Shown one piece after another: positions 1-35,514 of a DNA stretch of 35,514 nt; within the stretch, counting starts at the first letter, position 1; each line of letters starts with the position of its first letter. The notes beneath the pieces are model-generated. The model was not told the DNA's origin. It made no database searches and worked only from the letters and a program-made list of their open reading frames with translations. Source of the DNA: Candidatus Zhuqueibacterota bacterium (GTDB lineage Bacteria > Zhuqueibacterota > Zhuqueibacteria > Residuimicrobiales > Krinioviventaceae); assembly GCA_016929295.1 (NCBI GenBank), contig JAFGJB010000039.1, positions 1 to 35,514 of the forward strand, read 5' to 3'. A program made the position numbers and the translations under genes.

Positions 1-85
1 ACAGGAAAAAAGCTAAAATTAATCCCACCCTGGTGGCCGCTTTTGAAGTGCCCACCCCTGGCCGGTTTTAAAGTGCCCGATGACA
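1..85 (-). mobile_element. Possible end of an IS21-type insertion sequence, rest outside window
   Basis: Two direct repeats of about 25 bp lie at 34-58 and 59-83, each built on TGGCCG-TTTT-AAGTGCCC; a more degenerate third unit may lie before 34. Read on the minus strand the block starts TGTCA at 85 and proceeds as GGGCACTTTAAAACCGG and a second such unit. Tandem transposase-binding repeats of this size just inside a TG-starting end are typical of IS21-family elements, so the element body (istA/istB) would lie left of the window. No transposase gene is visible here, so this is an inference from end structure only. Confidence 0.3.
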
Positions 86-86
86 C

Positions 87-343
87 TTGATTCACCTGAT
101 TTGAGGATTTTCATGATTCCACAATCATGGTCATCCTTTAATCCTTCGCATCAAGGTTCAGACATTATTGTCCGAACCTTGATTCACCTGATTCAAGGAT
201 TTTCATGATTCCCATAATCATGGCCATCCTTTAATCCTTCTCATCAAGGTTCAGACATTTTTGACCATGATTCACCTGATTCAAGGATTTTCATGATTCC
301 ACAATCATGGCCATCCTTTAATCCTTCTCATCAAGGTTCAGAC
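87..343. repeat. Three tandem copies of a ~90-bp repeat
   Basis: Copies start at about 87, 179 and 267, giving periods of 92 and 88 bp; the third copy is partial. Each copy holds TGATTCACCTGATT, then an inverted repeat CATGATT/AATCATG with a 4-nt loop, a larger AAGGAT/ATCCTT pair around it, and ATCAAGGTTCAGAC at the end. The junction of copies 1 and 2 (150-183) forms a 15-bp stem with one mismatch and a 4-nt loop. The copies are adjacent rather than separated by unique spacers, so this is not a CRISPR array. No reading frame runs convincingly through it. Confidence 0.8.
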
Positions 344-2405: not shown

Positions 2406-3290
<885 letters not shown>

Positions 3291-3339
3291 TTTTTTATGA
3301 CCTCATTGCTAATTTCTAACCTTATTCATTCATGAATTT

Positions 3340-3370
3340 AACCGCCGAGGGCGCCGAGATTCGCAGAGAT
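3340..3370. repeat. 9-nt-periodic repeat in the pdxS leader
   Basis: The block reads as successive 9-mers built on CGCCGAGN, ending in CGCAGAG. It belongs to the same degenerate family as the blocks at 6381-6416, 6543-6583, 8313-8354 and 8704-8744. It lies between the pdxS start and the upstream element at 3389-3444. No facing partner was found nearby. Confidence 0.6.
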
Positions 3371-3388
3371 ATTGACCAATTTCGCTTC

Positions 3389-3444
3389 TTTTCCTCTGTA
3401 TCACAAATCTACAACATTGTGTTTTTTTAGCAAGTTATTTAACT
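3389..3444 (-). promoter_or_regulatory. Upstream element of pdxS shared with purH
   Basis: On the minus strand this reads AACTTGCTAAAAAAAC, an AT-rich middle, then TGTGATA and GAGGAAAA. The block upstream of purH (8220-8276) aligns with it over about 56 positions with almost no gaps. It contains a TTG-A-tract and a TGTGATA sequence that could serve as an extended -10. Spacing between TTG and the -10-like part is too long for a standard sigma70 promoter, so it may be an A-tract-driven promoter or part of a dispersed repeat. Confidence 0.4.
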
Positions 3445-3462
3445 GCGTTATCTCGATCGTTC

Positions 3463-3572
3463 GGCATATCCATGCCCCTCAGGGGATGTGCCGGACGGGC
3501 GATGCAGCGGACATTTGTCCGAGTGGGATAAATATCCCGCTCATTGTCCGCCCAGGATGGATATCCTGGGCG
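3463..3572. repeat. Cluster of four adjacent hairpins
   Basis: Four inverted repeats follow one another: 3463-3492 (GGCATATCC / GGATGTGCC, one G-T pair), 3508-3521 (CGGACA / TGTCCG, 2-nt loop), 3521-3542 (GAGTGGGAT / ATCCCGCTC, one G-T pair) and 3549-3572 (CGCCCAGGAT / ATCCTGGGCG, perfect 10-bp stem, 4-nt loop). Three of them share a GGAT...ATCC core around the loop. No protein is encoded. Whether this acts in RNA or DNA cannot be told. Confidence 0.7.
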
Positions 3573-3597
3573 ATCGTGGACTAGTACTAAAACAATG

Positions 3598-3670
3598 GAA
3601 CGCGGATCGAACGGATTGGAACGGATTTTTTCATCCATTAAAATCCGTCGTTTCCGTTCAATCCATGTTC
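3598..3670. repeat. Long inverted repeat built on AACGGATT
   Basis: The left arm (3598-3630) and right arm (3640-3670) are imperfect reverse complements of about 31 bp with a short loop. Each arm contains GAACGGA and CGGATTTT, and the left arm itself repeats AACGGATT. This looks like a short palindromic dispersed repeat. No gene covers it. Confidence 0.7.
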
Positions 3671-3923: not shown

Positions 3924-3944
3924 CAGGACCACTATTTCGGCAAC

Positions 3945-3972
3945 AAAAAAGGCGAGCCGGAACCGCCTCGCC
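3945..3972 (-). terminator. Rho-independent terminator after the penicillin-binding protein gene
   Basis: On the minus strand, 10 nt beyond the stop codon at 3983, GGCGAGGCGG pairs with CCGGCTCGCC (one mismatch, small loop) and is followed directly by TTTTTT. Position, GC-rich stem and U-run fit an intrinsic terminator for the gene at 3983-6190. Confidence 0.85.
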
Positions 3973-3982
3973 TCGTACTGTT

Positions 3983-6190
3983 TTAGTATCGAATTCGCCT
4001 TTGCGACGTCGGCTGTCTGGATTTCTCTCCGCTATGCATGTCACATTTCTCTTTCGGCACATAGCGAACGTCGCAAATATCTCTGATCACATTCGGACAA
4101 TATTCGGTCGCCAGTTTTTGCGTCTCCATGCAGATTTCGACCTCGACAATGCCCGCCGGCGGATCAAAGGGCGTCGGCGGAATGTGCAGCGTATCGACCG
4201 CCGCCTTCATGAACGGCGCCGTGATCGGCAAGGCGGCAACAGCGCCCGATTGTCGCTCTCCCAGCGACATCTTGGGATCATCGAGTCCCACCCAGACGCC
4301 GGCGACGAGCTCGGGCGTGAAGGTGATGTACCACGCGTCCGTATACTCGTTTGTCGTGCCGGTTTTGCCGCCGGCGGGATGGTAAAACTTGTAGACGGAT
4401 CGCGATGCCGCGCCGGTGCCGGCCGACGCGACGGTCTGTAACATGCTGGCCATGATATAGGCGGTCTCTTCCCGCAACACGCCGCGGCTTTCCGTCGTCG
4501 CCGTTTCAATGACATTGCCATATTTATCCTCGATCTTGAGAATGGCGACGGGTTTGACATAGACGCCTTTATTGGCAAAGACGGCGAACGCCGACACCAG
4601 CTCGATCGGCTTGACGCCAATGGCGCCAAGTGCCAGCGCATCAACGGCTTCCAGCGGCGTCGAGATGCCTAAATTGCGCGCATACTCTATAACCCGCTGC
4701 GACGGCACATCGTCTTTGATCAGACGCACGGAGACGAGGTTCAACGACCGCCGCAGTGCCTCTCGCAGCGGCGTCTCACCGCCGACAGAATGGTCATAAT
4801 TTTGCGGCGTCCAGCGCGTGCCCTGGCCATCCATATCTTCGACCGTCACCGGCTGGTTCAGCTTGGTGTAAAAAGGCATAAAGCCGTTATCAATGGCAGT
4901 GGTATATAAAATAGGTTTGAAAGAAGAGCCCGGCTGACGAATCGCCTGTGTCGCTCGATTGAATTCGCTCTCGGCAAAATTTCGTCCCCCGACCATGGCG
5001 AGGATGTGCCCATTATGCGGGTCAAGCGCGATGAACGCCACCTGCACGCGGCACTTTTCGGCGATCAGAGAGTCGACAAGCGCCTTGTCGCGCATGACTT
5101 GCTCGAGACTTTTGTTCTTCAACAGACTTGGCGGACAGATATAGGCGAAATTTCTCCTGCGGCGAAACGCATTGTTGACGCGTGCCTGCAGTTTAGGCAG
5201 ATGGTTGCGGATAGCCCGGTTTGCCGCGGTTTGCAGGCGTGTGTCCATTGTCGTATAAATTTTCAAGCCGGTTTCATAGATGTCATAGCCATATTTTTCA
5301 TAAAGTATACGGCGAACATGCTCGGTGAAATAGGACGGATCATCAATCGGCGCCTGCTCACTGCGTTCTTTGAGGACAATTTCTTCAACCACGCACGAGT
5401 CATAGTCGGCATGGCTGATATATCCCTCTGCAAGCATTCGCGACAGCACAAAATCGCGGCGCGACCTGGTGCGATCGTAATTTTGATAGGGATTGTAGAT
5501 GCCCGGCCGTTGCGCCGCGCCAGCCAGCAGAGCAGCTTCTGCGAGAGTGACATCCTGAATCGATTTGTCGAACAGATAACGCGCAGCGGATTCGGCGCCA
5601 TAGGTGGCATAGCTGAACTGCATCTGGTTCATGTACATTTCGAGTATTTCATCTTTGGTATAGGCGCGTTCAATCAGGATGGCGGTGAGGATTTCCTTGA
5701 GCTTGCGCGTAACTGTTTGCTCCGGCGTCAGATAGAGTCGTCGCGCCAATTGCTGCGTCAACGTGCTGGCGCCGCCGCCCTCGGTGCTGCCGCCGGAAAG
5801 AAGGTATTTGAAGGTCACCAAAAAAAACCGCGATGGCGATACACCCCAGTGTTTATAAAACTGATGATCCTCGACCGCCAGAACAGCCTCTTTCATGTTC
5901 GTGGGAATCTCGCTCAAAGGCGTATAGAAACGCCGCTGGGTGAAAAACTCGGAGATGAGTTTTCCATCAGCAGAATAGACCTTGGTCGCCAGCTCCGGGG
6001 TGAAATTTTCGAGCTGTTCAAATGAAGGCATGCCGCGACTCAGATACCAGATGCCGGCCACTGTGATGGAAAGACCGACAACGAGCAGCCATATCAGCCA
6101 TTTACACAGCTGCGGCAGCCTGTTATAGTCTTTTTTTGACAGTTTTTTAATGCCCAACACTTTGGCTGTTACAGATCTTTTGAATGTCAT
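3983..6190 (-). CDS. Class A penicillin-binding protein (PBP1A type)
   Basis: A bifunctional peptidoglycan synthase of 735 aa that polymerises lipid II and cross-links the strands at the outer face of the inner membrane. A cytosolic tail is followed by one membrane segment at about 31-49. The glycosyltransferase family 51 domain (about 75-260) has its catalytic Glu in EDHQFYKHWG (107-116). The transpeptidase domain (about 385-680) has the nucleophile Ser422 in SSFK, SLN at 482-484 and KTGTT at 609-613. The C-terminal tail carries four spaced cysteines (about 686-718), common in PBP1 relatives. All catalytic residues are present. The start ATG at 6190 has AGAGGA about 11 nt upstream. The gene is monocistronic, with its own terminator. 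Confidence 0.95.
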   Translation of the reverse strand: MTFKRSVTAKVLGIKKLSKKDYNRLPQLCKWLIWLLVVGLSITVAGIWYLSRGMPSFEQLENFTPELATKVYSADGKLISEFFTQRRFYTPLSEIPTNMKEAVLAVEDHQFYKHWGVSPSRFFLVTFKYLLSGGSTEGGGASTLTQQLARRLYLTPEQTVTRKLKEILTAILIERAYTKDEILEMYMNQMQFSYATYGAESAARYLFDKSIQDVTLAEAALLAGAAQRPGIYNPYQNYDRTRSRRDFVLSRMLAEGYISHADYDSCVVEEIVLKERSEQAPIDDPSYFTEHVRRILYEKYGYDIYETGLKIYTTMDTRLQTAANRAIRNHLPKLQARVNNAFRRRRNFAYICPPSLLKNKSLEQVMRDKALVDSLIAEKCRVQVAFIALDPHNGHILAMVGGRNFAESEFNRATQAIRQPGSSFKPILYTTAIDNGFMPFYTKLNQPVTVEDMDGQGTRWTPQNYDHSVGGETPLREALRRSLNLVSVRLIKDDVPSQRVIEYARNLGISTPLEAVDALALGAIGVKPIELVSAFAVFANKGVYVKPVAILKIEDKYGNVIETATTESRGVLREETAYIMASMLQTVASAGTGAASRSVYKFYHPAGGKTGTTNEYTDAWYITFTPELVAGVWVGLDDPKMSLGERQSGAVAALPITAPFMKAAVDTLHIPPTPFDPPAGIVEVEICMETQKLATEYCPNVIRDICDVRYVPKEKCDMHSGEKSRQPTSQRRIRY

Positions 6191-8836: not shown

Positions 8837-10189
8837 TCACTTTTGTTTGTTTGCTTCTTCCATGTAATTCAACATCTTGCCAACGATTTCCGAATGCGCA
8901 GCAGCCAGATCGTTTTGCTCATCGACATCGCGGCTCACATCATAAAGCTCGATGGGAGCATTGGTTTTGGGCCGTACTGCTTTCCACTGACCTGAGCGAA
9001 CAGCCTCCTGATCGCGGCCCTCGCCGGCAAATTTCCAGTAGAGATAGTCGTGCGACGGCTGCTCCTCCCCAAGGAGCGCGGGCAAAAATGACAGACCGTC
9101 AATGTCGTCCGGTGGTGTGACGCCGGCAATATCGCAGGCAGTCGGCAGATAATCCCAAAAAGCGGCGACATGGTGTGATATGGATCCGGCCTGAACCGCA
9201 CCTGGCCAGCGCACGATCAGCGGAACACGAATGCCGCCGTCGTAGAGGTCGCGCTTGTAGCCGCGCAGTTCGCCATTGGAATCGAAAAATTCGTGCCGGT
9301 GCCCTCCCTCCTCATGCGGCCCGTTATCGGAGGTGAAAAAGATGATCGTCCTGTCGTCTAGAGCCAATTCCCGCAACAACGCGACGATGCGTCCGACATC
9401 GCGATCCATGCGCGACACCATGGCGGCGAAGCCTTTTTCAGGCATCGGCCAATCCATGTTCGCGTACTGGCCATACTCCGGCACTTCCATGCCGTCGCCG
9501 GTGACGCGGCCACCTTCGTTGTTGGCGTGCGGGATCGTCCAGTGTACATGCAGCAAGAATGGCCGGCTGACGTTCGCGTGAATGAAGGCCAGCGCTTCAT
9601 CCGTCAGGACATCGTGCGAATAGGTCTTGCGCTCTCGAGCGACGCGTCCGCGATTGTTATCATCCCGCGCATAGAGCACATTGCCGTCCAGGGGCACCTT
9701 TTCATGATTGCGCCAGAGATAAAGAGGGTAGTAATTGTGCGCTTCGCTTTGATCGAGATAGCCCATCCAAAAATCAAAGCCATTGTCATTCGGATGACCC
9801 TGTCCCTCCGCATCCGCCATGGCCCACTTGCCGACGCCGCCGGTGGCATAGCCGGCCTCTTGCAGCAGTTCGGCGACGGTGACATCCTCTGGCTGAAAAA
9901 CGTATGGCGCGTTTGAAGCAATCGCGGTGTGCCCCGTATGTCTGCCCGTCCATAAAACGAGCCGTGATGGCCGGCAGACCGTGTGGCCGGCGTAAAAATC
10001 GGTGAATCGCATGCCTTCGGTTGCCAACTGATCAATGTTCGGGGTTCGAATAGTCTGTTGGCCATAGCAGCCGAGATCGCCATAACCGAGGTCGTCGCAC
10101 ATGATGAAAATGATATTGGGAGGACGGCCTGGCATTTCACCACATGTGGTTAAAAAACCGACGAGGATGAGCAAAAGGAGGGGCTTCAT
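8837..10189 (-). CDS. Sulfatase, predicted outer-envelope lipoprotein
   Basis: A 450-aa member of the type I (formylglycine) sulfatase family, which hydrolyses sulfate esters. The signal peptide ends in the lipobox LTTC, so Cys16 should be lipidated and the enzyme anchored to a membrane outside the cytosol. Metal-binding Asp32-Asp33 lie in MCDDLGYGD. The modification site is CRPSR (72-76), with Cys72 to be converted to formylglycine. TSDNG (about 290) supplies further metal ligands. No maturase gene is in the window. The start overlaps purN by 4 nt (ATGA), so it is probably the last gene of the long cluster. The substrate is unknown; choline, aryl or polysaccharide sulfates are all possible. 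Confidence 0.9.
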   Translation of the reverse strand: MKPLLLLILVGFLTTCGEMPGRPPNIIFIMCDDLGYGDLGCYGQQTIRTPNIDQLATEGMRFTDFYAGHTVCRPSRLVLWTGRHTGHTAIASNAPYVFQPEDVTVAELLQEAGYATGGVGKWAMADAEGQGHPNDNGFDFWMGYLDQSEAHNYYPLYLWRNHEKVPLDGNVLYARDDNNRGRVARERKTYSHDVLTDEALAFIHANVSRPFLLHVHWTIPHANNEGGRVTGDGMEVPEYGQYANMDWPMPEKGFAAMVSRMDRDVGRIVALLRELALDDRTIIFFTSDNGPHEEGGHRHEFFDSNGELRGYKRDLYDGGIRVPLIVRWPGAVQAGSISHHVAAFWDYLPTACDIAGVTPPDDIDGLSFLPALLGEEQPSHDYLYWKFAGEGRDQEAVRSGQWKAVRPKTNAPIELYDVSRDVDEQNDLAAAHSEIVGKMLNYMEEANKQK

Positions 10190-25907: not shown

Positions 25908-26055
25908 GACAAATTCCCCTCCGTAACAATAGGAAAACCAAGGACAAAAGAGCTGTTCGCCATGAACGATGCCGGTTTGTCGCGCAAATCTTGTCTACGC
26001 ATCAGTTTTTTTATTCAGTATTTTATGAGTGCTGCAAAACAAGCCTTTTTATCGA

Positions 26056-29000
26056 ATGAAGGAACAGCTGGTGATTCATCTACTATCGCGACTCTTGATA
26101 GCGCCCCTGCTTTTTCTGACGATGCTTTTTGCTTCGGAAGAGCCGGTTATATTTGACGCCTACCACAAGCCACAGAGGCCGTACGCGCACGTTCAATATG
26201 CGTCCATATCAGTGAGTGAGATGCACCATACGATTTTCACGCCTCCGGCACCTGTGAATTCCGTCGGCAGCGCGCAGCGTCGAATTCATCGGATCGAGAC
26301 ATCATTTTCGACCCGTCAGCTGGTGGGCCGGGTGCGTCTGACTTTAAAACCAGACATGATCAGCAGCGATTCTTTGCGCATAAAAATCGTGCTGCGGGAC
26401 AAGTTCGAATATCAGGTCGTCGATGCAACAGTGACATCCAATCAGTCAGAGTTTGCTTTTGACGGGACTTTTGCCGAATCGATGGAGGTATCCATTGCCG
26501 GCGCACAAGGCGATCAAAATCCCGTTGAAATGATGTCAATCGACCAGATAGTTCTGGCGGCCAAGAGGCGCATTCTGCTGCTGGGGGATTCGATTACCGA
26601 AGTACATTATGACACCACCGGCCAGGTGACGTGGGGATATCGTCACAGGCTGTATCACAAGCTTGTCAATGAATATCCGGATATTGATTTTGTCGGAACC
26701 AGCGGTGATGATCCATATGAAGCGCACTGCGATGGCGGCACGCGCATCAGTGCCTTTTGTCAAAACGGCTCCATGGATGTTCGCAGCCCCATGAACACCC
26801 ATCGTCCGCACATTGTCGCCATACATCTCGGCACCAACGATATCAACAACTATGAAAAACCGGTCGAAACGGCCGAAAACATGCGAAGATTGATCAACTA
26901 TCTGCTGCAATGGCGATATGATGAGAATGGCGCCGCTCTGGACGAGAACATTCGGTTGCAGCATATAATCGTTTCGCTCGTCATTCCGGCAAAATACCGG
27001 GACGAATTGAGCATCGAGACAAATCGATATCTCGCTCTGGTCGTCGACGATTTTGTCGCTGGACGGGAGACGGGCCGGCCGGAACCGGTTATTATCACGG
27101 ACCATTTCAGTCGTTTTCGAGAATGGCCCACTTTTCATCAATTGATGTGGGACAGGCTTCACCCGAATAATTCCGGTCATGAGGTCATGGCCGCCACATA
27201 TTTTAGAACATTCGCCACAATCTTGTCAGAACAAGCGGATCGCACCTGGTTTACGGATATCAGCTTTCAGGCCAATATCATCGGCACGGATTACAATTAT
27301 ATTGACAACAGCACAACCGAATTTCTCAACCAGGGTGTCGCCGTTGCGGATGTGACGGGTGACGGACAGGATGACATCTATTTCACCCGAACAGATTATG
27401 GAAACAACAAATCCCACGATGAGCTGTACATCTGGCATCCATCATTCCCCTATGTCAACAGAACGGATGATTTCAAGATCATGGATAACGGCGGCAGTCG
27501 CGGTGCAGTTTTTGTCGATATTGATAACGACGGCGACTTTGATCTGTTCAACGGCAACTCTCCGGGGCCGAATGCGCTCTATGAGAATCAAAACGACAAT
27601 GGCTTCATCCGCCTCACCCACGCCGGCATTGAAGAGATAAACGCCCTCACCGTGGGAGTGACCGCTTTTGACGCTGATAATGACGGCGATATGGATCTGC
27701 TGGCGGTCAATTCAAAGAGCGTCAATGAATTTTATCGCAATGACGGCCCGGGTCGATTCACGCCGGTTGAAAGTGAATTGCGCGACCTCGCCGGTGCAAG
27801 CTTTTCCAACTATATGGCGGCGCCCGCCGATTTTGACAACGACGGGGATACCGACATCTTTATGACCTACAGGGACGCAGCCGGCAAATTGTTTGCCAAT
27901 GACGGCGCCGGCAACTTTGTCGATGTCACCTCCCAGGCCGGACTCTATTACAATGGCCGAACCAATGGCGCTTCATGGACCGATCTTGATCTGGATGGTG
28001 ATCTCGATCTCGTGCTCACAGAATCACGGGTGTCAGAAAGCAGCGCCAAATTTCTGCGCTTGTACGAAAACAATGGCGATGGCGCCTTTTCCGATAATAC
28101 ATCTCAATTCAATATACCTGTCGATGGATTTTCCACCATCATCGCAGATTTCAATAACGACGGATTCGATGACATCATCACAGCATTTGAAAAGGAACAG
28201 TGCGAATTCTGGCAAAACCGCGGCAACTGGGCTTTTGAAAAAATATCCGAAACAGGCGCCGATATCCATGGCAGCGATGTCCGCGGCGCCGCTGTTCTGG
28301 ACTATGATGACGACGGCGATGTCGACATTCTGATGGCACGCTCGGATATGCTGAATGTGATGCTGCGCAATAACTATTCCCGCAACGAGCATTATCTCAA
28401 GGCGAAGGCCAATGGTCCCGGCGGAACCAAAGGCGGATTTGGCACCAGAATATGGTTATATGAGACGGGTCATCTCCATGACCCAAACTATCTGGTCGGG
28501 CACCGCGAAATCGTCTCCACCAGCGGCCATATTTCACAGTCGTCGCCAACTCTGCACTTTGGCCTGGGTTTCCATTCGTCCGTCGATGTGCTGGCACGCT
28601 TTACCGATGGATCATTTCTCTCGCAACGCGCCATTCCCGCCAACCGGACGATCATCGTCGAACCGCTCGCAAGTGTCGCAGGAGAGCCGGCGCGCATATC
28701 CTATCACGCCGGCGGCGATCAACAGGCGCCCGTCGGTGAGCTTTTGCCCCATCCCCTTGAAGTGCAGGTCATGGATGAAAACAGTGCGGGCGTCCCTGGC
28801 GTGACTGTGCCATTCAGGGTGACGCAAGGCGCAGCGCAGTTGTTGCTGCCAAACACCACAGCGGATAAAATATCGCTCGAAGCGGAAAATGGACAATTTC
28901 GCGCACCACTTTTCCGCGCGAACGCGGGCGATGCGGCCGGCGGCGCCTATGTTTTTGCCCATGCTTTTGTGCCGGGCGACGGCTCGTCCATCGTATGGCA

Positions 29001-32000
29001 AAAAGAGGTGAATACAACCGCCGATTATTTTCTATGGTTGCGACTTGCCAACAGCAGCGGAACGAGCCAAATAATATCGCTGACCATTGACGGCGTCCTC
29101 CGCAATGCCAGTGCGGCTGCGGATCCCATGTGGCGGTGGCTGAGAGTCAGCAGCGACAATGGCTATAGATTACAGGCCGGCGCCCATGCGTTTGAAATCA
29201 GGGCGAATATCCCCGGCATGCAAATCGACAAGCTTTTGCTCGTACGCGATGGTGACTATGCACCTGTCGGCCTGGAAGAACGCGCCGATGCGCCGGATGT
29301 CACGGACTCGCAGGGCATAGCGCGCCGATCTGTTCAATTGGGAACGCGCGCCGAAGAGATACTTGTCGAAGCATCCCTGCAAGTGGAGGGTCAACCTCTG
29401 CCCGACAGCCCGGTGATCTTTCATCTCAAGGCCGTTCCAGGTCCGGCGGCCAGGCTCGACAAAACATCCGGCGATGAGCAGACGGGCGCCCCGGGCGTCG
29501 AGCTACCACAACCGTTCGTGGTGACCGCTTATGATGTTCTGGACAATCCGGTTCCGCAGACGCTGGTCACATTTTCGTCTTTGTGCGGACGTTTGCAGCC
29601 CTCTTCAAGCATGCTGACGGATGAAATCGGACGCGCAGCGGTACGCTATACGCCGGACGGCTCATCCAGTCGCCAAAAAATCGAAGCAAAAATCGACGGC
29701 ATTTCTCCGGTCAGTTTTACAACCTTTGTGACCGGCGTCGCTGTCAAACTGGAGCTGTTATCGCAAGCTCATGACAGTGGCACGGTCATGCAGCCGCTGA
29801 GCGCCCCCATCCGCGTCAGAGTCATGGTCGATTCGCTGAAAAACGAGCCGGCTATCGGTTACCCCGTCGAATTCACGACGGCAAATAAAGGCGGCCGGCT
29901 GGCCGCCTCGAACGTGAGCAGCTCGGACAGCACGCTCGTCGTCGAGACCGATGAGAATGGCATCGCTCAGGCATACTGGCGACTGGGTGAAAAAAGCGGG
30001 ACGCAAACTCTCATTGTGAATGCGGGGAATATCTCCGGTTCCCCACGCCTGGTGACGGCGCTCGCCCACCCGGCTTCTCCTGCTCTCCTCTTGCTGGTGA
30101 GCGGCAATGAACAGAGCGGCGCCGTTGGCAGCCGTCTCGATAAAGCGTTTCAGGTGCGCGTCACAGATCTCTATCGCAATCCGGTCGCAGACATGCAGGT
30201 CAGATTCACCTCGACGTTTGATGGTACGCTCGAAGGATCGTCATCAACGATGAAAAGGACGAACGTCTTGGGCGAGGCATCGTGCTTTTATACGTTTGGT
30301 TCGACTTCCGGGTATGCCCACGTTGCGAGAGTCGAGGCTTATGACAAGGATCGCCGTATCGGCTCGCCCGTCGATTTTTACGCCACCGCGTTGCCCGGCA
30401 GCGCGGCAACGAGCGCCATCCATGCGGGTGACAAGCAGATCGGAACCGTTGACACCGACGCACCGCATCCGCTGGCGATCATCGTCAAAGATGAATTCGG
30501 CAATCCGGCGGCCGCCAGTGTGACATTCACGGCAATTGACGGCGGCCTGTTTGCAGGCCAGGAGTCGGTCAGCATTCTGACCGAGGCGGACGGCATCGCA
30601 TCCGCGGTCTATCGCATTGGCAAAACGGCCGGGCGGCAGAGAGTGCGAGCGGATTGTCCGGGTCTTTCACCATCGCATCACCTGTTTCTCATTCAAGCGC
30701 TGCCCGCTGATCCGACGAAAATAAGCGACATCTCGGGAAATCATCAAACCGGCAGCAGAAACACCAGATTGCCCACGCCTCTGGTCGTTCGCATCACCGA
30801 TCGTTATGGCAATGGCGTGATTGGTTTTCCCGTCACATTCACCGTCAGCAGTGACAATGGCTCACTTGGCGGCAAGCGCGAAATCGCAGTGTCCACTGAC
30901 TCGTCCGGCTACAGTTCCGCCCAGCTGACACTCGGCGATGAGCTCGGCGAAGACACCAACATTGTTCAGGCTGCCGGCAATTATAATGGCCTGCCTCTCA
31001 GGAACAGCCCGATCATTTTCTATGCGTCCGCGCACGTTGGGCAACCGCATGCCATGTATGTGCTATCGGATACCACTCATCTGTTTGGCGCTGCGAATCA
31101 CGAATTGCCACAACCCATCATGGTGAAAATTGCCGACAAAGATGGTCAGGCCATCGCTGACTTTACCGTTCAATGCCGCATCAGCGACGGCTCCGGCTAT
31201 TTTCAAGAGAATGGCAAAAAATCAATCGACCTGAAAACAGATGCCGATGGCCTGGTGAGCATCCGCTGGGTGCTCGGCGGACTGGGCGAACAGCAGCGCT
31301 TGATCATCATAGCGATAGATGAGGGCAAACACCTGGCAAACTCGCCGTTGACAATCTCGGCGAGCACCGTGTCTTCAACAGCCAAAGAACTCGTCATTAT
31401 CTCCGGAGACAATCAGTCGGGTGCGCGCGGCGAAGCGCTGAAAAATCCGTTCGTCGTCAAAATAGTTGACACTTTTGACGACCCGGTGAGCGGTCATACG
31501 GTCTTTTTTCGTGTCGCAAAAGGCGACGGTTCATTCATCGCTTCGGGCACACCGAGCTATGCCATGAAAACAGACGCACAGGGTACAGCGGCGGCATTTT
31601 TCCGCCTTGGGCAAGCCGCTGGCTACAAGGCGTATGAAATTGTGCTCCGTTCTTTCAGCGAGAGCGGCTTTGAATTATTCAACTCCCCTGACACAATTTA
31701 TGTGCATGGCACAGCTCGCGATTTGCTCATCGTCGCCGGCAATGAGCAGTCGCAGACGGTCAATGGCACGCTGGCGCCATTGCGGGTGCGGCTGGTGGAA
31801 AATAGCCAGGGCATAGCCGGCGAGGCCATCATATTCGAGCTGATGCAAGGCGATGCAGCATTCATCGATTCACCGGATCAAAAGACCGATGCCGACGGAT
31901 ATGCGCAGATCAATGTCAGATTGGGCGCACAAGCCGGAGAGATTAAAATCCGTGCGATGGCGCCCGCCTTTTCTGCAAGCGTCACTTTTACTAGTCGAGG

Positions 32001-33432
32001 GCTGCCGGACAAGCCATCCGCGCTGCGCAAAATCAGCGGCGACGAGCAAACCGGCATCGCGCATCATCCGCTGAATCAAAAGATCGCGGTACAATTGACA
32101 GATCAATATGGAAACGGCATTACGGCTCACGTCGTTCGATTCGAATTGCAGGCGGGGCATGGCGTCATCACGCCGACCAGTCACCTCGAGACCGATGCCA
32201 ACGGCTTTGTCCATGCCGGCTGGCATCTGGGTTCGGTCACACCGCGGCAATCTGTGTTGGTGAAATCGGCAAGCGAGGACGCCACGTTCACAGCGCACGT
32301 CCTGGAGAATCAGTCGCCGGTTATATCCACAGCGGACAGCTTTTTCACTGCTGAAAATGAAAAATTGCAGTTGCTGCTTCCGGTCATGGATGCCGAGCAC
32401 GATTCGCTCGCGATTGTCATGCAGAATGGGCCAAATGGAGCGATCTTTAATCCGGTGACAGCCATGTTTTCCTGGACGCCATCATACGAGCAAGCGGGTC
32501 TGCATTGGGCAACCTTTCAAGCCAGAGACATATTCGGCGCGGCGAGTACAAAGTCAATAAAAATCAGAGTTGAAAACTCGAATCGTCCGCCAACCATTGC
32601 CGCAGAACAATGCCGACCTCTTGGGCGACGACTCGGCAAAATCAAAATTCCAGCAATCGTCGATTTTTACGTGCACGCAACGGATCCGGACGGTGATATC
32701 CTGCACTATATCTGGCAGGTGAATGGCATCGCCAGGAGTGCATCGAAAAACTATCGACTCAGCACGCAGTCGACGGGATCGGGTCCTGTCACAGTAAAGG
32801 CTCTGGTGTTTGATCAGCAGGATACTGTCGCATCATCGTGGACACTGGAAGTTGTGACGGCCGTCGAGCTCAAATCTTTCAGCGCCATACACGCGCCTTA
32901 CACCGGCATCAAGCTGACCTGGGAGTCGCGTTACGAATGGGATAATGCCGGTTTTTACGTTTTGCGCGCTGCACAACAGGGAGATCCATACGAAGCGGTC
33001 AGCTATTTCATTGAATCGCGGGCGAACGGCAAGTACGATTTCATCGACCGGGACATTGAAGCGGGGATCAGCTATTTTTATCGAATACAGGATGTGCAAT
33101 CGAATGGCGCCAGGCACGAAAGTGAGATCATCCAAATAGCCGCGCCATTGCCAAAACAGTTCGCGCTGCACCAAAATTACCCGAATCCGTTCAATCCGGC
33201 GACAAGCCTGCTATTTGATATTGCGGAACCATGCCCTGGCTCGCTGGTCATCTATGATATACTTGGGCGCAAGGTTCGCACATTAATCGAAGGGGATCTT
33301 GCACCGGGATTTCACAAGATTGAATGGGATGGCGCGAACGAGTACGGGAAAACCGTGGCATCCGGTCTGTATCATGCCGTTCTGCATACGGAGAAAGGGC
33401 AGTTTGTGAAAAAGATGGCAATGGTGCGTTAG
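26056..33432 (+). CDS. Giant secreted multidomain protein: SGNH hydrolase, FG-GAP/ASPIC, CBM-like, Ig-like repeats, T9SS tail
   Basis: 2,458 aa, the only plus-strand gene. Signal peptide: about 1-26. An SGNH/GDSL hydrolase domain (about 165-395) has GDSIT with Ser179, GTND at 259-262, and Asp366/His369 in DRLHPN. FG-GAP/VCBS repeats with calcium-loop-like DxDNDGDxD motifs cover about 400-775, followed by an ASPIC/UnbV domain (about 779-869, ending with LHFGLG). About ten Big-1-like Ig repeats (about 882-2082) mostly start SG(D/N)xQxG. A CBM6/35-like domain (about 942-1065) is nested in the first. Then come cadherin-like, PKD-like and fibronectin-like segments and a type A sorting domain with QNYPNPFNP (about 2367-2458). 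Likely exported by type IX secretion. The start could also be GTG at 26029; neither has a good ribosome binding site. Substrate unknown. Confidence 0.9.
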   Translation: MKEQLVIHLLSRLLIAPLLFLTMLFASEEPVIFDAYHKPQRPYAHVQYASISVSEMHHTIFTPPAPVNSVGSAQRRIHRIETSFSTRQLVGRVRLTLKPDMISSDSLRIKIVLRDKFEYQVVDATVTSNQSEFAFDGTFAESMEVSIAGAQGDQNPVEMMSIDQIVLAAKRRILLLGDSITEVHYDTTGQVTWGYRHRLYHKLVNEYPDIDFVGTSGDDPYEAHCDGGTRISAFCQNGSMDVRSPMNTHRPHIVAIHLGTNDINNYEKPVETAENMRRLINYLLQWRYDENGAALDENIRLQHIIVSLVIPAKYRDELSIETNRYLALVVDDFVAGRETGRPEPVIITDHFSRFREWPTFHQLMWDRLHPNNSGHEVMAATYFRTFATILSEQADRTWFTDISFQANIIGTDYNYIDNSTTEFLNQGVAVADVTGDGQDDIYFTRTDYGNNKSHDELYIWHPSFPYVNRTDDFKIMDNGGSRGAVFVDIDNDGDFDLFNGNSPGPNALYENQNDNGFIRLTHAGIEEINALTVGVTAFDADNDGDMDLLAVNSKSVNEFYRNDGPGRFTPVESELRDLAGASFSNYMAAPADFDNDGDTDIFMTYRDAAGKLFANDGAGNFVDVTSQAGLYYNGRTNGASWTDLDLDGDLDLVLTESRVSESSAKFLRLYENNGDGAFSDNTSQFNIPVDGFSTIIADFNNDGFDDIITAFEKEQCEFWQNRGNWAFEKISETGADIHGSDVRGAAVLDYDDDGDVDILMARSDMLNVMLRNNYSRNEHYLKAKANGPGGTKGGFGTRIWLYETGHLHDPNYLVGHREIVSTSGHISQSSPTLHFGLGFHSSVDVLARFTDGSFLSQRAIPANRTIIVEPLASVAGEPARISYHAGGDQQAPVGELLPHPLEVQVMDENSAGVPGVTVPFRVTQGAAQLLLPNTTADKISLEAENGQFRAPLFRANAGDAAGGAYVFAHAFVPGDGSSIVWQKEVNTTADYFLWLRLANSSGTSQIISLTIDGVLRNASAAADPMWRWLRVSSDNGYRLQAGAHAFEIRANIPGMQIDKLLLVRDGDYAPVGLEERADAPDVTDSQGIARRSVQLGTRAEEILVEASLQVEGQPLPDSPVIFHLKAVPGPAARLDKTSGDEQTGAPGVELPQPFVVTAYDVLDNPVPQTLVTFSSLCGRLQPSSSMLTDEIGRAAVRYTPDGSSSRQKIEAKIDGISPVSFTTFVTGVAVKLELLSQAHDSGTVMQPLSAPIRVRVMVDSLKNEPAIGYPVEFTTANKGGRLAASNVSSSDSTLVVETDENGIAQAYWRLGEKSGTQTLIVNAGNISGSPRLVTALAHPASPALLLLVSGNEQSGAVGSRLDKAFQVRVTDLYRNPVADMQVRFTSTFDGTLEGSSSTMKRTNVLGEASCFYTFGSTSGYAHVARVEAYDKDRRIGSPVDFYATALPGSAATSAIHAGDKQIGTVDTDAPHPLAIIVKDEFGNPAAASVTFTAIDGGLFAGQESVSILTEADGIASAVYRIGKTAGRQRVRADCPGLSPSHHLFLIQALPADPTKISDISGNHQTGSRNTRLPTPLVVRITDRYGNGVIGFPVTFTVSSDNGSLGGKREIAVSTDSSGYSSAQLTLGDELGEDTNIVQAAGNYNGLPLRNSPIIFYASAHVGQPHAMYVLSDTTHLFGAANHELPQPIMVKIADKDGQAIADFTVQCRISDGSGYFQENGKKSIDLKTDADGLVSIRWVLGGLGEQQRLIIIAIDEGKHLANSPLTISASTVSSTAKELVIISGDNQSGARGEALKNPFVVKIVDTFDDPVSGHTVFFRVAKGDGSFIASGTPSYAMKTDAQGTAAAFFRLGQAAGYKAYEIVLRSFSESGFELFNSPDTIYVHGTARDLLIVAGNEQSQTVNGTLAPLRVRLVENSQGIAGEAIIFELMQGDAAFIDSPDQKTDADGYAQINVRLGAQAGEIKIRAMAPAFSASVTFTSRGLPDKPSALRKISGDEQTGIAHHPLNQKIAVQLTDQYGNGITAHVVRFELQAGHGVITPTSHLETDANGFVHAGWHLGSVTPRQSVLVKSASEDATFTAHVLENQSPVISTADSFFTAENEKLQLLLPVMDAEHDSLAIVMQNGPNGAIFNPVTAMFSWTPSYEQAGLHWATFQARDIFGAASTKSIKIRVENSNRPPTIAAEQCRPLGRRLGKIKIPAIVDFYVHATDPDGDILHYIWQVNGIARSASKNYRLSTQSTGSGPVTVKALVFDQQDTVASSWTLEVVTAVELKSFSAIHAPYTGIKLTWESRYEWDNAGFYVLRAAQQGDPYEAVSYFIESRANGKYDFIDRDIEAGISYFYRIQDVQSNGARHESEIIQIAAPLPKQFALHQNYPNPFNPATSLLFDIAEPCPGSLVIYDILGRKVRTLIEGDLAPGFHKIEWDGANEYGKTVASGLYHAVLHTEKGQFVKKMAMVR

Positions 33433-33451: not shown

Positions 33452-34882
33452 TCACATCTTGCGCAAGCGAAAACTGAATCTCGATCCCACGCCGATCTCA
33501 CTCTCCACGAACACTTGGCTGTGATGCGCTTCAATGATATGTTTGACGATGGCGAGCCCAAGTCCCGTGCCGCCGACAGTGCGTGACCGTTCCTTGTCAA
33601 CCCGGTAAAAGCGTTCGAAAATTCGCGACAGATGTTCCTCCTCAATACCGCGTCCACTATCTGCAACATAAATTTCAACCTTGTTTGAGCGGACGACATA
33701 GCCCACCTCCACCCGGCCATCGATCCTGTTATAGCGGATGGCATTCATCACCAGGTTCAACATCACCTGATTGAGCCTGTCGCGGTCGCCGAGAACCAGG
33801 ACGTTTTCATTGAGATCATTGACCATGCGCAAGTCGACAGAATGCTCGGCCGCGGTTTCCTGCAAATCCAGGACAATTTTACGTAACCAGGCATGCACAT
33901 CGAACGGGCTGAAAGTCATCTGCATTTCGCCGGATTCAATACGCGAAATATCGATGAGATCGGTGAGCAAACTATTCAGTCGCACGGCCTGGCGATAGGC
34001 TTTTTTAATGAATTTTGCTTTTTTTTCGGCCTGCGGATTCTGCATCAACGTCTCCAGATATCCCTGCAGCGAAAAAATCGGCGTTCTTAGCTCATGCGAG
34101 ACATTGCCGAGAAATTGACTCCGCATCTGTTCGAGCTTTTTCATGCGCACTAGGTCATTCTTGATCCTGTCCAGCATATCATTCAAAAGAGTGGCCAGCT
34201 CGCTGATTTCATCATTGCCGGCGACGCTGAAACGCGCATCATAATTGCCGGCTTTGATCTTTTCAGCCACGATCGAAAGCTGATGAAACGGATCGGTGAG
34301 GCGGCTGGCAGTGAGGTAGCTGAGGACAGCGATGAGGATGAGCGCCATTCCGCCGCTCAACATGATCTTCCAGCGCAAAGTGCCGAGGACCGCCGCAATT
34401 TCCTCCAGTGGCAACGCCAGGCGGACAAACCTGACAGTCGAGGTTTCAAGATCGCACAATTTAGCTGCGTAAAACATGGAGTGGTGGAGCGTGGCGCTTG
34501 TGCGCTCATTTTGACCTATTCCTTTTGCCAGGGCCATCTGAACTTCAGCCCTTGTCAGGTGGTTCTCCAAAAAAGGCAGAGAATCCGCGGCCACCTCAGA
34601 ATCAAAAATGACGGCCCCCAGCGAGTCAATCAACGTCAAGCGTAGTCCTGAACGCTGCGCATAGTGGGTCAGGTAGCTGTAATCATCTCGCTGCTGAAAA
34701 TCCAAATTCAGTGTCTCGAGCAGGTATTCGACCTGATTCAGCTGAATGATCATTTGATCGAAAATGCGCTCTTTGTAGTATCTTTGGATCTCCAGGGTGG
34801 AAATGATGCTCGCAGTGAGGGTGGCGAAGAACAGCAACGACAGGACAAGAAGGATTATCTTTTTTCGCAGCGTCATATTCAT
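33452..34882 (-). CDS. Membrane sensor histidine kinase (PhoR/ResE type)
   Basis: A 476-aa sensor kinase. Two membrane segments (about 6-30 and 171-194) flank an extracytoplasmic sensor region of about 140 residues. A HAMP domain (about 193-245) leads to HisKA with the phospho-acceptor His263 in NVSHELRTP. The ATP-binding domain has NAIRYN (N box), DSGRGI (G1), FERFYRVD (F box) and GGTGLGLAIV (G2). All are intact. The frame opens at TTG 34891, but ATG at 34882 is preferred. It starts 9 nt after the regulator gene and converges on the giant gene, with only 19 nt between the two stops. The signal sensed is unknown. Confidence 0.93.
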   Translation of the reverse strand: MNMTLRKKIILLVLSLLFFATLTASIISTLEIQRYYKERIFDQMIIQLNQVEYLLETLNLDFQQRDDYSYLTHYAQRSGLRLTLIDSLGAVIFDSEVAADSLPFLENHLTRAEVQMALAKGIGQNERTSATLHHSMFYAAKLCDLETSTVRFVRLALPLEEIAAVLGTLRWKIMLSGGMALILIAVLSYLTASRLTDPFHQLSIVAEKIKAGNYDARFSVAGNDEISELATLLNDMLDRIKNDLVRMKKLEQMRSQFLGNVSHELRTPIFSLQGYLETLMQNPQAEKKAKFIKKAYRQAVRLNSLLTDLIDISRIESGEMQMTFSPFDVHAWLRKIVLDLQETAAEHSVDLRMVNDLNENVLVLGDRDRLNQVMLNLVMNAIRYNRIDGRVEVGYVVRSNKVEIYVADSGRGIEEEHLSRIFERFYRVDKERSRTVGGTGLGLAIVKHIIEAHHSQVFVESEIGVGSRFSFRLRKM

Positions 34883-34891
34883 TGGCAACAA

Positions 34892-35514
34892 CTAGTCACT
34901 TTTAAATCGGTAACCGACACCTTTGATTGTCTCAATGAATTCCGAATACGCTGGTCCCAGCTTTTCGCGAATTTTGCGAATGTGAACATCAACTGTGCGA
35001 TCGATGACGATGACGTTGTCATCCCACAGCTCATCGAGAAGAATGCGCCGGGTGATCACCCGTCCCGGACGACGCGCCAAGAAGAGAAGAATCTCAAATT
35101 CTTTTTTGGTCAGCATGACCTCCTCCCCATCGACGAGCACCTGATAGCTGCCCGGATCGATGGTCAATGCGCCAAAAGCGAGAGATTCCGTTGTTTCGAT
35201 CATCTGTTGCGGCGCTTTGCGGAATGACTTTCTGACGCGCGCCAGCAGCTTGCGAATAGAAATCGGCTTGACGATATAATCATCCGCTCCCAGTTCGAGA
35301 CCGACTATTTCATCGATCTCACTGTCCTTGGCGGTCAAAAAGATGACCGGAATGTCGGCGGTTTTTCTGTTCGCTCGTAATTCGCGCAGCACCTCAAAGC
35401 CATCCTTTTTCGGCAGCATGATATCGAGCAAAATGAGGTCCGGCTGTTTCTCCGCCGCTTTCTTGAGCGCTTCTTCACCATCGAGAGCTTTATAGGTCTT
35501 GTAACCCTCGGCCT
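34892..35514 (-). CDS. OmpR/PhoB-family response regulator, N-terminus cut by window edge
   Basis: The gene runs off the right edge, so the start is missing; about 207 codons are visible. The receiver domain shows the phospho-acceptor aspartate in LILLDIMLPKKDG and the lysine in FLTAKDSE. The C-terminal winged helix (about the last 100 residues) has LTKKEFEILLFLARRPGRV and VDVHIRKIREKL, typical OmpR/PhoB DNA-binding motifs. It precedes the histidine kinase gene by 9 nt, so the two form a two-component system. The most likely member is PhoB-like, but the target genes are not evident. Confidence 0.93.
   Translation of the reverse strand, partial: AEGYKTYKALDGEEALKKAAEKQPDLILLDIMLPKKDGFEVLRELRANRKTADIPVIFLTAKDSEIDEIVGLELGADDYIVKPISIRKLLARVRKSFRKAPQQMIETTESLAFGALTIDPGSYQVLVDGEEVMLTKKEFEILLFLARRPGRVITRRILLDELWDDNVIVIDRTVDVHIRKIREKLGPAYSEFIETIKGVGYRFKSD

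Follow-up and report, generated by a model that had tools for sequence, protein, structure and literature searches.

A CBM6/35-like domain nested in a split Big_1 unit of a predicted surface hydrolase, and its occurrence in genomes of the uncultured phylum KSB1

The window, that is, the whole stretch of 35,514 nucleotides analysed here, was located on contig C143 of a draft genome (G000; 4.34 Mb, 367 contigs, 96% complete) from an uncultured phylum, for which the name KSB1 is used in our study. The window was found to contain one long intact open frame encoding a protein of 2,458 amino acids, from the ATG at 26056 to the stop at 33432 of the plus strand; an alternative GTG start at 26029 would make the protein 9 amino acids longer. 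The other plus-strand open reading frames of at least 60 amino acids, leaving aside those lying mostly under a longer minus-strand frame, were four of 64-74 amino acids and one of 187 amino acids (34664-35227), which overlapped both the histidine-kinase and the response-regulator genes. As these frames were short or overlapping, 26056-33432 is the only convincing plus-strand gene of the window, as an earlier note on this DNA had claimed. On the minus strand, a sulfatase with an SGSH-type C-terminus was found at 8837-10189.

The domain order proposed in that note, with an SGNH hydrolase, an FG-GAP/ASPIC region, Big_1 repeats, and a type IX sorting tail, was recovered with Pfam and NCBIfam models, the tail being a borderline match (Table 1). 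The whole protein gave 13 Pfam family matches up to E 1, with eight Big_1 stretches; alignment resolved the "about ten" Big_1-like repeats of the note into one interrupted and nine regular units. The N-terminal region was conserved in L053 and weakly in L060. The dN/dS ratio against the same-genus orthologue was about 0.10 in the SGNH domain, 0.12 in the ASPIC domain, 0.14 in the FG-GAP region, 0.21 in the carbohydrate-binding-module (CBM) like insert, 0.26 in the stalk, and 0.36 in the N-terminal region. By this measure, constraint on the gene is strongest in the enzyme head.

Table 1. Features of the 2,458-residue protein and their positions in the window
Feature	Nucleotides	Strand	Basis
Whole gene, 2,458-residue predicted surface protein	26056..33432	+	Single open frame; purifying selection against same-genus orthologue
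Signal-peptide-like N-terminus (residues 1-27)	26056..26136	+	Hydrophobic stretch, judged by eye
N-terminal region without recognisable family (residues 28-165)	26137..26550	+	Best Pfam E 0.059, not significant
SGNH/GDSL hydrolase (residues 173-379)	26572..27192	+	Pfam PF00657 (Lipase_GDSL) and PF13472, both over the cut-off
FG-GAP propeller-like repeats (residues 400-790)	27253..28425	+	Seven FG-GAP_3 stretches (Pfam)
ASPIC/UnbV domain, UnbV_ASPIC (residues 794-866)	28435..28653	+	PF07593 34.0 bits, cut-off 23.4
Split Big_1 unit, front half (residues 878-934)	28687..28857	+	Own-stalk HMM 31.5 bits, model 4-51 of 105
Nested CBM6/35-like domain (residues 935-1078)	28858..29289	+	Profile and predicted-fold matches; invariant residues
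Split Big_1 unit, back half (residues 1079-1130)	29290..29445	+	Own-stalk HMM 16.3 bits, model 61-103
Stalk, nine regular Big_1 units (residues 1132-2084)	29449..32307	+	Aligned units; Big_1 148.1 bits, whole protein
Big_9 Ig-like unit (residues 2085-2170)	32308..32565	+	PF17963 30.1 bits, cut-off 23.6
Type IX type A sorting tail (residues 2375-2454)	33178..33417	+	TIGR04183 24.3 bits, cut-off 23
FlgD_ig, within the sorting tail (residues 2395-2446)		+	Pfam 32.1 bits, cut-off 27

The SGNH domain scored 39.0 bits with PF00657 (cut-off 23.6) and 36.3 bits with PF13472 (cut-off 32.9). The catalytic positions assigned by motif were Ser179 (GDSIT), Asn261 (GTND), and Asp366 and His369 (DRLHP). The Ser, Asn, and His residues did not vary across the 14 orthologues, and the Asp residue was kept in 13 of 14. 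With these motifs present and their residues conserved, the description of the hydrolase as intact is supported, and its triad is apparently complete. The best matches of the SGNH profile to solved structures included 2vpt (lipolytic enzyme, E 4.1e-10), 5b5s (E 1.5e-7), and 5b5l (acetyl esterase, E 9.7e-7). A simple motif search over the 73 SGNH heads described below found block I in 64 and block V in 64; four of the nine heads without block I were cut at the 5' end, and the remaining ones may be degenerate. The region behind the hydrolase resembled the CRTAC1-like FG-GAP/ASPIC proteins, as residues 407-681 matched the structure of cartilage acidic protein 1 (9etn, E 5.4e-14 in phmmer). CRTAC1-like proteins are not known to contain a hydrolase, stalk, or CBM.

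The first Big_1 unit was found to be divided by an interruption of 144 residues (935-1078) into halves at about 878-934 and 1079-1130. Alignment to the protein's own regular units placed the end of the front half and the start of the back half on the two sides of one short loop. The profile used for testing the split was an HMM of length 105 made from the window's nine regular Big_1 units only; with this profile, the window's unit scored 31.5 bits for the front half, 16.3 bits for the back half, and 51.0 bits when rejoined (model 4-103). For the wider test, 108 distinct composite proteins (Big_1 front, CBM-like insert, Big_1 back) were extracted from 100 fetched stretches, the window, and L091. 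Across these proteins, the insert was 139-167 residues long, the fronts ended at a median model position of 51, and the backs started at 61 of 105. The median scores were 37.5 bits for the front alone, 16.1 bits for the back alone, and 57.8 bits for the rejoined unit. With the insert removed, the rejoined unit scored over 5 bits higher than the front alone in 108 of 108 composites, the window included, against 0 of 108 with a shuffled back half and 0 of 108 with an insert piece in place of the back half. The rejoining test thus confirmed the earlier proposal that an inserted domain splits the first Big_1-like unit, with one correction of position: the "TDSQG" of the back half, given there at about 1075, lies at 1083. 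The interruption is a real nested domain. Against Pfam Big_1 (PF02369), the rejoined window unit scored 29.5 bits, below the protein-level cut-off of 34.9 (whole protein, 148.1 bits), and the membership of the joined halves in Big_1 was found with the window's own stalk HMM.

As a single sequence, the insert scored 18.2 bits against Pfam CBM_35 (PF16990; cut-off 28), and among 28 insert relatives searched against Pfam at E 0.01, one matched CBM_35, five GH115_C, and four Golvesin_C. Being below the Pfam cut-off, the insert was rejected as a member of the CBM35 family and was kept at the level of the fold. A profile of the 28 inserts matched the PDB sequences 5x7o (E 1.2e-13), 8zvk (2.3e-9), 3wnl (1.5e-7), 2vzp (4.6e-7), 1uxz (1.1e-6), and 2w1w (2.1e-6); by their entry titles, 2vzp and 2w1w are CBM35 and 1uxz is CBM6, and the chains of 5x7o and 3wnl presumably carry CBM35. 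Four residues were invariant in 108 of 108 inserts, namely the second Glu of LEAE, the Arg of WLR, the second Trp of WxW, and the Asp of IDK, which we take to resemble the metal and sugar sites of CBM6/35.

The fold of the composite was predicted twice with AlphaFold2. The first prediction, from two sequences, had a pLDDT of 49.5, and many of its top Foldseek matches were CBM35/CBM6 entries; the fold of the Big_1 halves was not taken from it. In the second prediction, the regular stalk units of the window and L091 were added as alignment rows (the L091 units 3283-3606 and 3943-4254 were left out, and the CBM-like rows L120 and L152 were dropped as misaligned), and the pLDDT was 79.6 with a pTM of 0.55. 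The block means of pLDDT were mostly 84-97 in the front half and mostly above 90 over the two Big_1 halves, whose predicted fold is not independent because the added rows presuppose such halves; the CBM part had no such help and reached 76-86 over most of its core and 45-57 at the beginning of the insert, over roughly 40 residues (model 61-100). How the CBM and Big_1 domains are placed relative to each other is left unfixed by this model. In the VIA-align comparison of the predicted fold, 3zm8 (GH26-CBM35) came first (Z 11.2, rmsd 1.9, 102 residues), and the CBM35/CBM6 entries gave Z 10-11 with an rmsd of about 2 over about 100 residues. Cry-toxin sandwich domains tied with CBM6 entries close behind 3zm8, so that sugar binding is unproven from the fold alone. 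At rank 19, a 110-residue stretch of a GH2 protein was aligned to the model range 3..252 (95 residues, Z 10.1, rmsd 2.8), which fits both Big_1 halves making one domain. The profile matches to CBM35/CBM6 chains and the predicted fold together uphold the CBM6/35-like domain that had been suggested between the halves, and the insert is, as predicted, a CBM6/CBM35-like beta-sandwich.

When the window composite was used as query, 57 of 60 relatives matched at E 0.001, some over part of the length, and with the 28-row profile 70 of the 82 KSB1 genomes matched at E 1e-20. The full Big_1/CBM/Big_1 composite, taken as a match from model position 10 or lower to at least 222 of 244, was present in 65 of the 82 genomes, counted among the matches listed; for the other five of the 70 matching genomes, the matches listed comprised the CBM part only in three and none in two. 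The window protein had earlier been taken as a single odd case; its architecture stood, and in place of its singularity a phylum-wide family was found. A restriction to the window's genus was ruled out by the matches across relatives and KSB1 genomes. The CBM part alone was also found in other KSB1 proteins. Several adjacent CBM-only matches per frame were seen in G037:C277, G043:C172, and G024:C18, where the domain seemingly also occurs in tandem.

The control set contained 48 genomes reached through other loci, 3 labelled KSB1 and 45 not so labelled, the latter chosen for holding FG-GAP proteins. Matches at E 1e-6 were found in 14 of the 45, and those listed covered the Big_1 front only or the CBM only. 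Among 296 genomes of Bacteroidota (the phylum of Aestuariivivens), three matched at E 1e-20, all over the CBM part alone, in a scan that scored at most nine candidate stretches per genome and could therefore miss a weak composite; one of 40 Calditrichaceae-group genomes matched, again over the CBM part alone. No full composite was present among the matches listed in the 45 controls, the 296 Bacteroidota, and the 40 Calditrichaceae-group genomes, where phyla other than KSB1, Bacteroidota, and the Calditrichaceae group are sampled through the 45 FG-GAP-bearing controls only. As the control matches covered single parts, these occur widely, and only in KSB1 were they seen nested together; the composite as a general feature of bearers of type IX secretion (T9SS) or FG-GAP proteins is unsupported by these control genomes. 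One genome, G093 (Gemmatimonadaceae, record L103), had many frames of 1.6-1.9 thousand amino acids with Big_1 units, with no nested CBM among the matches listed.

Each of the 108 proteins contained exactly one composite, preceded in every case by a recognised head module. The heads were typed with profiles made in our study, after single-linkage clustering of the payloads had given one cluster of 108 and was discarded; "ConA" is a label for a module of 190 residues that Pfam matched weakly and in few members (Laminin_G_3, DUF7257). SGNH was present in 73 of the 108 heads, as SGNH-ConA-fn3-ConA (38), SGNH-fn3-ConA (14), SGNH-FG-GAP (14), SGNH-ConA (4), longer SGNH types (2), and SGNH (1). The heads without SGNH were ConA-fn3-ConA (19), ConA-ConA (4), ConA-ConA-fn3-ConA (3), ConA (2), and fn3-ConA (4, all cut at the 5' end), and three further heads had FG-GAP only, two of them cut at the 5' end and one broken by a frame change. 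ConA-like modules were thus found in most heads. The nested unit was kept in 25 members classed without SGNH, so that the device is independent of the enzyme. Judged from these profiles, head domains are exchangeable on one nested unit, in front of which SGNH apparently stands together with fn3 and ConA-like modules, or ConA-like modules stand by themselves, or, in the window's clade, SGNH is joined to FG-GAP. Among the 83 complete frames, the length behind the composite was 1,324-1,953 residues in 75 and 8-837 residues in eight; a long stalk is therefore usual and not universal.

An unrooted tree of the 108 composites, made by a quick method, placed the 17 FG-GAP members in one group (SH-aLRT 100); all 17 belong to the window's order. 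On this tree, the four head classes required 8 changes against 49.6 in shuffles. The FG-type gene was divergent from the genes for folB, HPPK, and a deoxynucleoside kinase in 11 of the 14 other FG members with enough upstream sequence, against 0 of 51 other SGNH members and 0 of 23 further members (0 of 74), which argues that the window-type gene is old and was mostly kept in place. The FG-type orthologue in G007 (L058:6587-13565) was divided into two overlapping frames inside its FG-GAP part, by a frameshift or an assembly error.

The tail of the window protein was barely above the TIGR04183 cut-off (24.3 against 23 bits, NCBIfam), and the tail model PF18962 gave no match to the window protein up to E 1, nor was this protein among the 150 matches listed for PF18962 in the genome. 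An NPFNP-like tail motif was found in 89 of 94 composite proteins with a complete 3' end; of the five proteins without it, two were tail-like by eye and three end elsewhere. Type IX secretion genes were expected elsewhere in the genome, and SprA (900 bits) and PorU (858 bits) were both found over the cut-off. The PorP family gave a weak match only (20.3 against 90.55 bits). GldM was not found in the window's genome with the models used, which gave no signal in a positive control either, and GldL was not found there either, being over the cut-off in 0 of 9 KSB1 genomes (one weak match) against two positive Bacteroidota genomes. The T9SS motor of KSB1 may be diverged or different. Four further long PorU-like proteins, in frames of 1,319-1,897 amino acids (G000:C272, C166, C315, and C361), scored 237-274 bits with NF033707 over the best stretch.

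From sequence comparison and the predicted fold, we consider it fairly probable that the window protein is a surface-anchored, T9SS-exported esterase stalk, projecting its CBM by means of the split Big_1 unit. The SGNH hydrolase and the FG-GAP/ASPIC region would form the tip, and behind them would lie the opened Big_1 unit with the CBM, the nine Big_1 units, Big_9, and the sorting tail. The T9SS would carry the protein across the outer membrane, and PorU would cut the tail and fix the C-terminus to the surface, so that the N-terminus would be the far end. The split Big_1 unit would make the CBM project sideways beside the enzyme. The CBM, probably calcium-dependent and with the conserved W-x-W face, would hold an acidic or acetylated polysaccharide, from which the SGNH domain would remove ester groups; the substrate class is a guess from the esterase-type neighbours of the SGNH domain (one of them named an acetyl esterase) and from CBM35 domains solved with uronic acids, according to the entry titles. 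The earlier note had also read the protein as a stalk presenting an esterase to a polysaccharide; this reading agrees with the CBM fold, the triad, and the type IX genes that were found, and is weakened by the borderline tail and by GldL and GldM, which were not found with the models used.

A different purpose is possible, if clearly less probable: the protein could be an adhesin first, whose stalk, with the CBM and ConA-like or FG-GAP heads, would attach to particles, biofilm, or cells, the SGNH domain being accessory or trimming the ligand for release. The members that keep the nested CBM and are classed without SGNH are consistent with attachment, as are the ConA-like modules in most heads and the closest mechanistic precedent, a split Ig unit with a CBM, which is an adhesin device; against it, SGNH is present in 73 of 108 heads, has the lowest dN/dS among the regions of the window gene (about 0.10), and keeps its catalytic residues in the window's orthologues. 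It is improbable that the protein acts on the envelope or capsule of its own cell, where it would de-acetylate or cross-link the cell's own exopolysaccharide and keep that layer distant from the cell. The presence of the full composite in 65 of 82 KSB1 genomes, among the matches listed, and, within the window's order, the usual location next to folate genes (11 of 14) would suit a household part more than a diet gene, but the genes directly around it are of the folate, nucleotide, and two-component kinds, and no capsule gene was found among the neighbours scanned. We give an equally low chance to the insert being a structural spacer or a protein-protein domain, CBM-like in fold but lacking a sugar site. 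Its scores below the Pfam CBM cut-offs and the equal scores of non-CBM sandwiches in the fold comparison would be expected of a spacer, but conservation is concentrated on a handful of polar and aromatic residues (E, R, W, and D in 108 of 108), as a metal or ligand site would show, and sugar-binding CBM35/CBM6 domains are present in the chains that the profile matches. Mis-assembly or chance alignment as the cause of the split, to which a fragmented draft of 367 contigs might give rise, can be dismissed, given the rejoining in 108 of 108, the recurrence of the insert at one and the same point in 108 distinct proteins of many genomes, and the purifying selection that acts on the insert as well as on the two halves.

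The esterase stalk preferred here was compared with known systems. In intimin/invasin-type proteins, tandem Big_1 units form a rigid surface stalk with an N-terminal barrel anchor and a C-terminal tip, whereas the predicted anchor of the window protein is its C-terminus. The "lipolytic enzyme, G-D-S-L" of Clostridium thermocellum (2w1w, 2w47) is by name a GDSL hydrolase with a CBM35-type domain, as here, and 2w47 was solved with an anhydrogalacturonic acid ligand, according to its entry title. The modules of the Clostridium protein stand in ordinary tandem order, unlike those of the window protein, where an Ig-like unit on a long stalk encloses the CBM. The closest likeness is with the RTX adhesins: in the available parts of two articles, Ig-like split domains are described as projecting a CBM away from the axis (PMC12077191), and FrhA as having a split Ig fold with a sugar-binding domain (PMC10865825). 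As in AhLap of Aeromonas hydrophila and FrhA of Vibrio cholerae, the CBM would bud from an interrupted Ig-like domain near an Ig-like extender stalk (PMC12077191, PMC10865825, same parts). Unlike the RTX adhesins, which have a type I secretion signal, the window protein has a type IX tail, Big_1 units, and an SGNH head, and belongs to another phylum; common descent is not claimed. No RTX-type family was present among its 13 Pfam matches up to E 1, so that it works like an RTX adhesin and is not one.

Our literature search retrieved no paper on KSB1 together with type IX secretion, on a split domain with type IX secretion, or on an SGNH hydrolase with type IX or Big_1, and gave unrelated titles only for pairs of UnbV, GDSL, FG-GAP, and Big_1, where the word "Big_1" is poorly indexed. 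Two KSB1 papers (PMC9012183, PMC11683472) tabulate CAZymes and, in their available parts, make no mention of such proteins. The principle of a split Ig unit with a CBM is already known; what is new is its distribution and setting. It suggests that the split-domain projection of a CBM, known from RTX adhesins, is also used with a different secretion system and in combination with an enzyme. The composite marks most of an uncultured phylum at the sequence level and offers a handle on how KSB1 members may touch polysaccharides; with its 250 residues, it is suited to direct expression and glycan-array screening.

For the family as a whole, we see about an even chance that the composite is a phylum-defining KSB1 chassis, made of the split-Big_1 CBM with usually a stalk of 1.3-1.95 thousand amino acids and a type IX tail. 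This chassis would be one invention, made before the phylum radiated (as its spread suggests) and kept in most lineages with exchange of the heads, independent of the split-Ig projector of the RTX adhesins and built to hold enzyme and substrate at the far end. The nested unit would thus be an old device of the phylum on which head domains were exchanged, and in the window's order ConA-like modules would have been replaced once by FG-GAP/ASPIC. CBM-only relatives were seen outside KSB1 in G308:C1, G307:C1 and C4, G311:C6, and G426:C229, one of them as a tandem pair, and are possible sources of the insert. Two to three composite proteins were found close together on one contig in G041:C43, G057:C2, G026:C45, and G036:C158, which suggests local duplication.
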